Assembly (NCBI GenBank): GCA_020343875.1
Contig: CP070811.1
Location: 2,399,936 to 2,461,954 of the forward strand
Reading direction: 5' to 3'
Source: Anaerolineales bacterium
Lineage (GTDB): Bacteria; Chloroflexota; Anaerolineae; 4572-78; NAK82
Length of the DNA stretch: 62,019 nucleotides
Shown here one piece after another: positions 40,673-45,895 of this stretch. The notes beneath the pieces are model-generated. The model searched no databases. It had not been told where the DNA came from and worked only from the letters and a program-made list of their open reading frames with translations. The translations under genes were made by a program, and so were the position numbers. Position 1 is the first letter of the stretch. Every line of letters begins with the position of its first letter.

Positions 40673-43600
40673 TCACTCCACCACAACCTCCAGCGGCGCC
40701 CGCACGGTCAAATCGGCCGGGTTGTAGTAGTCATACGCGCTGGAGGGAGGGGTTTGGGCTCGCATGGGGAAGCGGGCTCGCAGGCGATAGTTGAAACGCA
40801 GCCACCCCTGGGACGAAAAGTCTTCCAGGTAGATGATGATCTGCCGCCCCGTCAGCTCGTAGCGAGCAATGATCCCCTGCTCTACCAATCGGCTCAAATC
40901 CTCGCTGAGCACCGTGAAGCCGGGCGGCACGCCCAAATCAATCAAGGCCATCTTCACCACGCCTTCTTCATTGAGCTTCAACCCAACGTCCACGGTCACT
41001 GTGTCATTCACGGCCAATGCGGTACGGTCGTAATCCAAGTCAATGGTGATGAGTTCCTTGATCTCCGGCTCAGGCGGCACCTGGTCCCAAGGCAGATAGT
41101 AGCTGGTGGCGACCTGATACATCAGATTGCCGCCCCCTTCCACCTCAATCTGGACCCGGTTGGCCCCGCTGGGAGAGAAGCCACGATCGAGGACGACCAC
41201 GTGCACCACATCTGCGTTGCTCTCATCAATGACGATTTGTTGAGTTTGCTCCTTATTCAAGCTAACGCTAATCGTGGCTGCGCCTTCGGCCCGTCCCGCC
41301 TTCTCCGTTGCCAGCAGCAATGTCTTGAGGGTGAGGATGGTGGCCTGGGTGGTCCCCCAGGTGCCCCAGCTGTCCTTGCCCTGCACCAGATAAGCCAGCG
41401 CGCCGCTGACTGCTTCCGGATGCGCGTCAGCTCGCATCAAAGCATAAGCCGCCAGCGCCGTCGTCTCCAGGCTGCCGCTTTCACCCGTGGCGCCCATAAA
41501 CGAGGCAGCACCCATTTGCCAGTAAACAGTATCCCCCTCTTGTAGGCGCATCTCGTGCAGCCGATTAATCACGGCCTGTGTCGTCCCGTGCTTAGGATCG
41601 TAGGCGGCCAGGGCATTGGCTGCCAGCGCCAGGTTGTAGGCGTCCTCTTCCTGAGAGGCGAATTCGCGCACATAGCTGATGGCTTTCCCCACCTGGGGCG
41701 TGTCCTCGTAGCCAGCTTCGATCAGGGCCCAGGCCACGTAGGACGTCGCGCCCAATGTGCCTTGCCCGGCCCGATAGTCGGAGACCTGCCAGGTGCCGTC
41801 GGGCTGTTGCTGGCTCAGTAGCCACCCCGAAGCCCGTTCCATGACAGCATCGTCCACCGGGTAGACCCTGGCCATATCGTTGAACTCCATCAACCCGTAG
41901 GCGCTCAGAAAGACCTGGGCAGGCGGTTCGCCAAAGAGGGAGAAGCCCCCCCCTGACACCTCGAAGGTCAACAGGCGTTGGTAGCCGGTGCCCACGTATT
42001 TTTCGGCTGTCAGCTGCAGCTCGGGGCTGGCCTGGCCGGTAGTCTGCATGTAGTCCAACACCAGAACATTCGGATACGTCGACGACGTAGTTTGTTCAAA
42101 TCAGCCGTGGGGCAGGCGCAAGATTTTCTCCAACCCCTCAACTACCTGGGCCATCACCCCCGGATAGATTTTGACCTCGACGTAGGGTGTCTCCGGTACC
42201 GCCTGGGGCGGTATCTCGACAGCCACCTCACGGCTCTGGCGCAGCCAATCGCTCTCCGTCAGCCGAATCTCTTTGCCATCTGGCACCACGTTTACCTCGC
42301 GCCGGATGGCGTCACTCATCTTCTCGCCCCAGGCCGTCACCTGGAAACCGCGCCGGCCAAACTTAAGGACGCGAATGGGGTAATAGACCACCTGGATATC
42401 ATTGGAGGCGATATCCAAGGTTTGCTCGGCCTCGCCCAACAGCTCAAACCATGGCTCTGGCTCCACCACCAATCGCACCTGCTGGGCTTCGGGCAGGTAA
42501 TTGAAGACACCCACTGGGATGCTGATCTCATCTCCCTGAGTCAGCGAGACGGGCAGGTCAATGTCCACGAAGAAATCCTGGAAGACGCGTATCCCTCGGG
42601 TCGCATATCCCAGCCGCCCATCCTGGGATGAAGCCAGTGCCGTCAGCCGCCAGGTGGTGATGCTATCCGCCATGGGGATTTCCAGCCGGGCAGAGCCCCC
42701 TTCATCTGTGGCCAGCTCTGGCGCCCAGTAGAGCGTCTCGGGAAAATATTGGCGCAGACGCGGTGCTTCTCCGGGCGCTGGCGCTTCGTCAGCGGCTGAG
42801 GGTCGAATTCCCTCCCGCCCTGCCTCCTTTTCCAGCACCAAATCAGATCTGACCTCTCCGACCGCCGCCAAGGGTGCCATGGGAACAGGCGCCATGCCAC
42901 CCATAGTCGTGAACAGCAAGGCAGCCGGTACAGCAGCTGCCGCCGGCAGCGCTGCAAGCGCACCCAGTCCGGTGACCAGGACTCCAGCGAAACGCCTTGC
43001 TTGTACCCATAAGCCCTGCCCAAAGAGCAGGAAAGCGCCGGGCACCAGCAAGTACGTGAGCAAGGCCACCACGGCCAGGGCCTCGGGTGGCTCGCCCCCC
43101 CACTCCGACACCTCGATCAGCAAGAACAGGAACCCACCCCATGCCAGTGTCAACATGGCGAAGAGCCTGATGGCTGGGTCCCGCTTGACCAAGGCATAAC
43201 CCGCAAAAGTCAGCCCCCCCAGCCCAAGTATGGCTGCCAAGGGTATCAGGAGCTGCTCCGGGTTAAAGTAGTTAAGGGTCTCCGATGCAACCATCGCCCA
43301 GCCCACCAGGCACCCTCCCAGCACCAGGAGGGCCCCCGACACAACGGCTAGCCGCACCAGGGAACGCTTCACCACTTGGGCACGCCGCAGAGCAACCAGC
43401 ACCACCACCCACAGTCCCAGCGGAATGAGGATCAAACCAGCAACGGCCCCCAGACTGAGCCGGTCGAAACCTGCCTGCTGGGCCGAGCGGACCTCGCGCA
43501 TCTTCTCCTGGCGCGAGTTGATGGGCTGGGCGGCGCTGGCTATCGAGGCTCCGGCCCAGCTGGCTTTGGCTGCCCCGTCCTGGGCCAGTCGAATTTGGTC

Positions 43601-45520
43601 TTGATCAGGGGGAAGGGCCGTTGGCAGTTCGAAGCCTTTGACTTGATAAAAAGGCTCCAGCAATTCCTGTTCCAGCAAGAAATAGAGCTTGGCAAAGCCG
43701 GGGTCCTGGCGCTGCAAGGCAAACACGGACTCGTCCACAATGGCCACGCCCAGCACCGTCTGAACACCTGCCCCTTGGGTTCCAGGCCCCTGGCTGGTCT
43801 GAAATGCGATCGCTGCCATCTCACCCGGCAAATAGGTATCTTTGTCGGGGGTTACGCTGATAGCCAGATCGTTGGGCGCGTCTGCTACGACCAGCCGTGT
43901 ATCACGCACGATGGTGCCATCCAGCAGCACCTTATACGCGTGCAACTCCAGCGTGCCATATAGATCAGGGCTAACATCCACGGCAAACTCTGCCTTGCCA
44001 TTCAGGACCCGCTCCGAGCGAGTGTAAAGAGTCTGCCCTGCCTTCACAATGTCCAGGTACACGTCACCAAACGCCACCGGGCTGAAGGCAACCAGGTGCA
44101 TGGTCTCGCCCACCACATAGGCAGCCCGGTCGGCACGCAGGAGCACGCTATCGCTGCCATGCTCCGCTTCAAATTCCACCAGCCGGCTGGCCGAAAGTCC
44201 TGCCTCATCACGGGCAAGAATCTCGAGGGCGTGATAGCCGGTCTGCCCCGGTGAAAAGGCGAACTCGGTCAGCCCAAATTCGCCACTGGTCAGCTCAGTT
44301 GGCCCCCCGCCATCCACGCTGATACTCAGGCGGGCCGGCGCGGGCCGACCATCGGGGTAAGAGGTAAGCACATACACGATATTTTCCACCCCTGGCTTGA
44401 GCACGCCGCTTTCGGCCACTGCCTCGATGACCAGTGGCTGGGCGGCGATGGGCAACACCCGGCTGGTCTGCTCGGCGTGCTCGGTCTGGTCCACAACGGT
44501 CACTTCCAGCGCAAACTGGGCCTGCTCCGACTCCAAGCCCAGCCCGGCGAAGTAATCGGGCAGCTCGAAACCGAATTCATACGTCCCATTCTCGTCGGTC
44601 TGGCCCCTCAAGTCGACCACCACGCTCCGCTCTACGTCCCACACGCTACCTACGATCTGAACCTCTCCCAGCCCCACCGGCTTGCCGAAGAAGTAATCGG
44701 ACTGAACCACCCCTTCCACGCGCTGCCCGGGCAGATAGAAGCTGCGGTCCGTGGAAACGTCCACAGCGAACTTGGGCAACACATAAGGGCGCACTTCCAC
44801 CGTCTTCTCAGACCGGGTATCGGCAATCGACACACTCAACCTGTAATCTCCCTGGTTAACCAGGTCAGCCAGCGTAAAGTCGGCGGCGGTCACCCCAAAG
44901 TTTGAGGCGGTTACGCTTTGCCGGAAGACCTTGTTACCCTTGGGGTCTTCCACCAGGAAGTCAACCGTCGCGCCCTGGGCGGGTGTCAGGTTGAACGCGC
45001 TGAGAGCCAGGGCCCGCATGTGTATCACCTGGCCGGGCTGGTAGAGAGGCTTGTCGCTGCTAAGCAGCAGCCGGTAATCGCGCTCAATAGACACCGGTTG
45101 TTCAATTCGGTCCTCCCCCGCCCCTGACTCGGTCTCTACAATCAGCTGCGCCTCCGGCGGCGCATCGGTCGGCACGCGGAACTGCACGGGCAGACTGCCC
45201 GTTTCATCGGTCCGTCCTTCAAAGAGCGGCACAGCCGGGCGGCCGTCCCCCTTGAGGCTGACCTTCACCTGTGCGCCAGCGATCGGCTCCCCGGCAGCGA
45301 AGTCCTGCACCACCACCCGCACTGAGGCGCTGCTACCCGGTGCGAAGCGAGTTTGCCCCAAGACAATCGTCTGCTGATCATCCAAACGTTCTGGAAGAGT
45401 GATGATCCAGCGCAACGCCACAAAGCCGGCTGCCAAAAGCAAGATTATCAGTACATAAGGGGTTATGGTCAGCCATCGCTTTGTGGTTGATGGGTTGGCA
45501 ACTGGGGGCTGGGTAACCAT
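40673..45520 (-). CDS. Alpha-2-macroglobulin with in-frame TGA at the thioester Cys
   Basis: One reading frame of 1616 codons broken by a single TGA at 42103-42101. The N-terminal 1139 residues hold a membrane anchor (about 18-38), MG1-MG2 and further macroglobulin domains, about six transmembrane helices (about 690-875) and the A2M domain (RLEIPMADSITTWRL, about 945). Residues 1141-1615 hold the thioester-domain alpha toroid and receptor-binding domain (GYQRLLTFE, GGFSLFGEP, YVAWALIEAGY). Across the break the frame reads LRLPHG-TGA-FEQTTSSTYPN. Bacterial macroglobulins read PxGCxEQTTS here, so TGA stands for the thioester cysteine; its partner Gln is intact at position 1143. A GGAGGAA site precedes ATG 45520; no ribosome site exists for an independent C-terminal ORF. 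Selenoprotein or fresh nonsense change; see findings. Confidence 0.85.
42064..42097 (-). promoter_or_regulatory. SECIS-like stem-loop just after the in-frame TGA
   Basis: Minus strand, starting 3 nt after the TGA: lower stem GAAC / GTTC (42097-42094 with 42067-42064), an asymmetric internal loop, then a perfect upper stem TACGTC / GACGTA (42089-42084 with 42080-42075) closing a GTC loop. The apical loop begins 17 nt after the TGA and its first base is G. As I recall them, bacterial SECIS rules ask for a small upper stem, a G among the first two loop bases and about 16-37 nt from UGA to loop; this fits. Folding energy was not computed. Confidence 0.4.
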
Positions 45521-45895
45521 GACGTTCCTCCTATACTACAGTAAGGGGCCCTCCAGGCATGTGTGCCTCACAGGCCGCTCGGCGACGCTTCCCTGTATCG
45601 CGCTCAAAGGCGTTCCAAGATCAGGCTTTCGCCCAGCCTGGCTTTACAGCATTGTCCAGCAACTGCACCCTCAGCAGTCACCGGTCACGATTCTTGGCCT
45701 AAGCAGGACAACTTACTCTAAAGACGCCACAGGTCTAGTTGTGGTTCCCTGGTATTGTATCACATCCAGAGCTGGACGAGTATCACCCAAAAGTCATCAA
45801 ATTGCCGGCGTACAACAGGGTCCGCCCGAGTTCTTGGCCGTATAGAGATGCCTCGCCCCTCCCCCACACCCAAAAACCCTGGGGCAGATATGACA
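45521..45895. other. Intergenic region upstream of the macroglobulin gene
   Basis: About 375 bp between the macroglobulin start and the terminator of the Memo/ETF unit. I see no convincing gene. A TACAAT-like -10 is present on the minus strand near 45755, without a good -35 box. The frames here are short and lack ribosome sites. Confidence 0.4.

Follow-up and report, generated by a model that had tools for sequence, protein, structure and literature searches.

A bacterial alpha-2-macroglobulin gene with an in-frame UGA at the thioester cysteine: a candidate selenocysteine macroglobulin with a likely internal selenoester

The window, by which we mean the whole stretch of 62,019 nucleotides that was analysed, carries on its minus strand a macroglobulin gene in which a single in-frame TGA interrupts an otherwise open frame. 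No runs of N were present anywhere in the window sequence. The features of the locus are as follows.

40673..45520, minus strand: candidate selenocysteine (Sec) macroglobulin gene, consisting of 1139 codons, TGA, 475 codons and the stop TGA
45527..45532, minus strand: AGGAGG, Shine-Dalgarno-like, six bases 5' of the ATG (sequence)
45398..45454, minus strand: predicted N-terminal membrane anchor, residues 23-41 (hydropathy scan only)
43715..44140, minus strand: A2M_BRD bait-region domain, residues 461-602 (PF07703, E 5.9e-9)
42911..43468, minus strand: insert with six predicted membrane helices, residues 685-870 (hydropathy scan only)
41318..42157, minus strand: TED_complement thioester domain, residues 1122-1401 (Pfam PF07678, E 7.7e-42)
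42101..42103, minus strand: in-frame TGA, codon 1140, predicted selenocysteine at the thioester Cys position (sequence, alignment)
42092..42094, minus strand: codon of Gln1143, the kept thioester partner (sequence, motif)
42075..42089, minus strand: SECIS-like hairpin UACGUC-GUC-GACGUA, 11 bases after the UGA, with a loop that begins with G (sequence)

The codons around the site read CTG CCC CAC GGC TGA TTT GAA CAA ACT ACG TCG on the minus strand, giving the motif L-P-H-G-[TGA]-F-E-Q-T-T-S. The first-pass annotation had placed the TGA exactly at the thioester cysteine. This was borne out by direct reading of positions 42103-42101 and by alignment to human A2M and CD109, in which codon 1140 (entered as C for U in the query) falls on the thioester Cys of GCGEQ. 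Direct reading also confirmed that the frame is open for 1139 codons before and 475 codons after the TGA, which is the sole internal stop of the macroglobulin frame (45520-40673). The earlier figure of 1616 codons holds when the final stop, also a TGA, is counted and fails as a protein length, the predicted product having 1615 residues.

Six Pfam models scored above their gathering thresholds, in the order MG2, MG3, A2M_BRD, A2M, TED_complement and A2M_recep. The A2M domain occupies residues 929-1018 of the window protein and the receptor-binding domain residues 1523-1603. Comparison with the PDB returned CD109 (E 2.5e-66) and human A2M (E 1.8e-62), and the sequence match covers the A2M, thioester and C-terminal domains. 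These two proteins are secreted or GPI-anchored and, unlike the window gene, have a Cys at the thioester.

In the hydropathy scan, the predicted six-helix insert lies after the bait domain and before the A2M domain. The scanned Chloroflexota relatives, both Sec and Cys, were predicted to have a comparable insert, as were L058, L060, L100, L113 and L120; the same scan did not predict it in L064, L068, L076, L111, L112, L114, L115 or L116. A macroglobulin with a membrane domain by its bait region would be unusual in itself, and the predicted insert makes the trapping geometry uncertain.

The gene resembles the type I bacterial alpha-2-macroglobulins, E. coli ECAM/YfhM and Salmonella SaA2M, as these are described in PMC4498604: MG, bait-region, thioester and C-terminal MG domains are found in both, and the reactive residue of the CLEQ thioester likewise stands three positions before the Gln. 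It differs from them in carrying TGA for the Cys codon and F for L in the motif, and in the predicted membrane-helix insert near the bait domain. A further difference is that no pbp1C-like gene was present among the six scanned neighbours. The Pfam scan assigned Memo-like, electron-transfer flavoprotein, acetamidase/formamidase and amino acid permease genes to this neighbourhood and left one gene of unclear type, and none of the six neighbours scanned pointed to a functional link with the macroglobulin.

Following the analysis of the gene itself, the state of codon 1140 was examined in other genomes. A survey of the order covered 25 genomes, 22 of which gave some match. All five order genes that cover the site (the window gene and four others, 63-87 percent identical to it over the matched stretch) had exactly one internal stop, a TGA at the same codon. 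Two further observations were made in this order. L027 (G007) showed 62 percent identity over residues 14-676, after which its frame ends, with no match reported for the remainder beyond residue 676; it is perhaps a decayed copy. A second macroglobulin type, with the Cys motif Y-E-C-T-E-Q and frames of up to about 2100 residues, was represented by L028, L029, L030, L031, L033, L045, L047, L049 and L050.

A named genome collection was then scanned with motif-free peptides, and the best 80 of 125 relatives, corresponding to 79 loci, were kept. Their 80 motif sites comprised 34 TGC, 29 TGT and 17 TGA codons, with 0 TAA and 0 TAG. The pattern P-x-G-[TGA or Cys]-F-E-Q was present in all 79 loci of this best-80 set. 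The preservation of the partner Gln1143, asserted earlier for the window gene, thus extends to 79/79 of these loci and to 38/38 rows of alignment A1. In that alignment of 38 sequences the P, G, F, E and Gln around the site were invariant, and no further Cys was found among the invariant columns. Cys versus TGA among homologues had been named as informative by the first-pass annotation, and the aligned homologues carried only TGA or Cys codons at this position.

The 396 genomes of the class were also searched with nucleotide patterns. A degenerate TGA pattern matched 21 genomes, and 20 of the 21 proved to be true macroglobulins. The Cys (TGY) pattern gave 32 matches in 30 genomes, with macroglobulins at 27 of the 30 fetched loci, and the TAA/TAG pattern gave one match, which was no macroglobulin. 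The reversed patterns used as a control (TGA, Cys and TAA/TAG) matched one genome each. L152 (TGA pattern), L170 and L197 (TGY) and L198 (TAR) were dropped because they are not macroglobulins. The case of one genome with both Sec and Cys forms, G165, was likewise dropped; its TGC match, L181, is no macroglobulin. The non-macroglobulin matches L152, L170 and L181 have a similar stretch after F-E-Q in common.

When the sets were merged and genomes seen twice were removed, the total came to 30 different TGA genes from 28 genomes. They come from environmental bacteria of the Chloroflexota, Planctomycetota, Myxococcota (titled Deltaproteobacteria in the records) and Abditibacteriota, together with one unclassified bacterium. 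One of the genes, L120, is from Ca. Uabimicrobium amorphum, whose chromosome is complete. Two TGA macroglobulin genes were seen in the single genome G037 (L113 and L116), and two more lie near each other on the same strand in L115, at 3897 and 10579.

In annotations made with gene callers that treat UGA as a stop, such genes would appear as truncated proteins or as two pieces. In the protein database, Cys occupied the site in 120/120 of the best 120 of 5168 proteins found, a list that is blind to TGA forms if gene callers stop at UGA. Over residues 921-1500 of the window protein, identity to these 120 reached 74 percent, the value for P0002. The Cys members of the subfamily (P0002-P0121, L058, L061 and others) share the motif with the window gene, and unlike it none of the Cys genes for which DNA was compared forms the hairpin (0/62 and 0/27).

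The hairpin after the UGA was compared between TGA and Cys genes. At least six of its seven pairs could form in 22/30 TGA genes versus 0/62 Cys genes (the best Cys gene reached five); the hairpin was defined after inspecting the same sequences, so that the TGA count is post hoc and the Cys genes and synonymous shuffles serve as the controls. Shuffling synonymous codons within the usage of each gene gave expectations of 1.0/30 for the TGA genes and 0.14/62 for the Cys genes. L109, whose contig stops five residues past the codon, was omitted from the hairpin counts. Within the class, the hairpin was found in 20/20 TGA genes versus 0/27 Cys genes, and G stood first in the three-base loop in all 20 of these TGA genes. 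The coding sequence also differed between the two groups: where Thr stands at codon +8, it is written ACG in 22/24 TGA genes versus 7/57 Cys genes, and codon +5 encodes Thr in 22/30 versus 12/62. Given the ACG bias at +8 and the Thr excess at +5, the protein itself seems to have been bent to keep the hairpin.

Among the eight TGA genes without the common hairpin, six (L060, both genes of L115, L112, L113 and L120) have longer hairpins with a shuffle p of 0.02 or less, for which a loop G is not established. In the same shuffle test no significant alternative hairpin was present in L116 (p 0.11) or L065 (z -0.4). A general folding test separated TGA from Cys genes weakly. The mean z over the 45 bases after the codon was -0.65 for TGA versus -0.27 for Cys genes (p 0.04), and the 60-base version gave -1.11 versus -0.12 (p 0.0002), with 7/30 TGA and 2/62 Cys genes individually reaching p 0.05 or less. 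The region after the TGA in the window gene itself was not unusually stable relative to synonymous shuffles (z -0.06 and -0.4). A planctomycete-type helix showed compensatory pairs; it was given little weight because the Cys genes also form many of its pairs (6.0/10 on average, best 9).

For the Sec machinery, the first-pass annotation had pointed to selA, selB, selD and selC as the genes to look for in the complete genome. The window genome consists of 5.35 Mb in one gapped scaffold and is 85.6 percent complete. Three of the four components were found in it with scores above their cut-offs. A tRNA-Sec with anticodon UCA was detected with Rfam (67.5 bits, E 2.5e-13) and is also called by ARAGORN; in a set of 14 control genomes the tRNA-Sec model matched E. 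coli and M. jannaschii and no others at E 1e-10. SelA scored 545.7 bits and SelD 371.9 bits. The fourth, SelB, was recovered only as an N-terminal piece of about the first 43 model positions that ends at 100 N. This piece, L012 (G000:C1:135772-135897), belongs to a gene interrupted by the 100 N at a scaffold joint. A second, weaker match to the tRNA-Sec model above the cut-off (50 bits) lies at G000:C1:3615238-3615327.

The SelD gene (L019, G000:C1:5104650-5105582) has one in-frame TGA of its own, near the N-terminus and followed by A-S-K, with a predicted hairpin after it. A UxxK motif is given for Sec-containing SelD in a 2026 review (PMC13188914), and the TGA followed by A-S-K fits this motif. 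As judged from the sequence, SelD of the window genome is likely to be a selenoprotein too.

Across the TGA genomes, SelB above the curated cut-off was complete or near-complete in 26/28, and the remaining two, G000 and G051, had SelB pieces. Among the examined Cys genomes it was above the cut-off in 52/76 (35/50 and 18/27, with one genome common to both sets). The difference gave a one-sided Fisher p of 0.007 with kinship ignored; within the class the counts were 18/20 versus 18/27 (p 0.06). More than one SelB match above the cut-off was seen in G036 (three) and G320 (two). The tRNA-Sec was found in 24/28 TGA genomes, a count that takes in the window genome and 27 others after removal of five duplicates and of G342, which is no macroglobulin carrier. 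It was not found in G020, G051, G019 and G037, all of which are drafts.

Several other readings of the TGA were weighed against these results. The first-pass annotation had kept a point mutation or sequencing error in view, and the gapped, 85.6 percent complete MAG assembly would leave room for one. This possibility is refuted by conservation: 30 genes from 28 genomes, one of them a complete genome, have TGA at this codon, and neither TAA nor TAG was seen at the 80 motif sites. Decay of the downstream half, also raised earlier, was not seen. All 30 TGA genes have an open frame beyond the TGA, two of them on contigs that are cut or do not reach the stop. For the stretch downstream of the TGA, seven pairs of these genes gave dN of 0.08-0.18 and dS of 0.52-1.33, hence a dN/dS of about 0.08-0.18, far below 1. 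The half downstream of the TGA is clearly under purifying selection. As the same TGA is found in other genomes and the sequence downstream is under such selection, an error or a pseudogene was ruled out, and we regard its probability as negligible. The UGA could also be read as another amino acid. UCA-anticodon tRNAs carrying Cys or Ser exist in some bacteria, and the weaker tRNA-Sec model match in the window genome might be taken for one of this kind. This reading has to contend with a tRNA-Sec called by both ARAGORN and Rfam, with SelA and SelD, and with a hairpin after the UGA that is absent from Cys genes. Moreover, TGA is the final stop of the window gene and of 5/29 TGA genes with a visible end, the window gene included, from which it follows that TGA also means stop. 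Such a recoding was rejected as the main reading and is very improbable.

Two readings accept the insertion of Sec and differ over its purpose. Sec insertion competes with termination, so the UGA might act mainly as a selenium-dependent switch whose functional point is a truncated form without the thioester domain; the short product would still contain the predicted membrane segments and those macroglobulin domains that precede the thioester domain. The clear purifying selection downstream in the seven pairs and the frames that stay open past the TGA speak against this, and a switch would be an addition to Sec decoding and no replacement for it. We consider it unlikely. Somewhat less remote, though still doubtful, is a Sec that is inserted but forms no selenoester and has a redox or metal-binding role, as Sec does in many known selenoproteins. 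According to the 2026 review (PMC13188914), homology to thiol oxidoreductases or a redox motif is found in many selenoproteins, and a redox function is likely for most of those not yet characterized. Here, however, the site is the A2M thioester site in the PDB alignment, the Gln and the motif are kept in every locus and row compared, and no other Cys stands among the invariant columns.

The results are best accommodated by Sec at the thioester position. The earlier proposal that residue 1140 is Sec was supported by the conservation of the TGA, the hairpin and the machinery genes, and on these sequence-level grounds the predicted insertion at codon 1140 is strongly supported. The window gene resembles the known bacterial selenoprotein families in its UGA with a downstream hairpin, its Cys homologues and the Sec machinery genes of its genome, of which SelB is seen as an N-terminal piece. 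We hold it to be highly probable that the gene encodes a macroglobulin with a UGA-encoded Sec1140, likely in an internal selenoester with Gln1143, and that it represents a new selenoprotein family. Only the thioester Cys is replaced, and its neighbours P, G, F, E and Gln do not vary among the 38 aligned sequences. A Sec-Gln selenoester is the simplest reading.

In the macroglobulin family, as described in PMC4498604 and PMC5764988, cleavage of the bait exposes a Cys-Gln thioester, which then forms a bond to the attacking protease. In the mechanism proposed here, SelB and tRNA-Sec, together with the hairpin after the UGA, would place Sec at residue 1140. The N-terminal helix would likely tether the protein on the outer side of the inner membrane, with the membrane-helix insert near the bait domain. 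Upon folding, an internal selenoester would form between Sec1140 and Gln1143 and take the place of the thioester. Once an attacking protease had cut the bait region, this bond would become accessible and would acylate and hold the protease. A selenoester has the better leaving group, and its reaction would be expected to be faster than that of a thioester. Selenoester formation and protease trapping by the window protein are inferred, and likewise its membrane topology and faster chemistry.

The statement of the first-pass annotation that no Sec macroglobulin had been described agrees with what was found in the literature. No macroglobulin is listed among the 119 prokaryotic selenoprotein families in the table of the 2026 review (PMC13188914). 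The term macroglobulin is likewise absent from the main texts of PMC12013277, PMC9312934, PMC4807772, PMC5029168, PMC2398784, PMC11032199 and PMC1794560. A search for macroglobulin, selenocysteine and thioester in PMC, a collection outside which most subscription papers and all preprints lie, returned no title on bacterial macroglobulins.

The exchange between Sec and Cys was followed on trees of the surrounding protein, from which the motif and the next 20 residues were excluded; both are quick trees. The 131-row tree, which includes L181 (later found to be no macroglobulin), needed 11 Sec/Cys changes, seven of them forced by supported branches. The 92-row tree, without L181 and 38 Cys rows, needed 10, with six forced. 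At least six Sec/Cys changes thus appear to be forced by well supported branches, with gain and loss indistinguishable. L167 (Sec) and P0010 (Cys) form a close pair, and the window gene falls in a supported group of eight Sec and four Cys rows. Such repeated exchange among close relatives provides natural pairs for asking what selenium buys.

Taken together, we think it likely that selenocysteine is used here outside redox and metal chemistry, in a Sec-Gln selenoester protease trap that has repeatedly been exchanged with its Cys form in at least four bacterial phyla, the engulfing planctomycete Ca. Uabimicrobium amorphum being among the carriers. Such an internal bond would be directly testable through a mass loss of 17 Da and reactivity with methylamine, and the complement/A2M superfamily offers a well studied system for comparison. 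If true, no internal selenoester would have been described before in a natural protein, as far as is known and was searched. Sec at the macroglobulin thioester would then give the 21st amino acid a new role, that of leaving group in a covalent protein trap.
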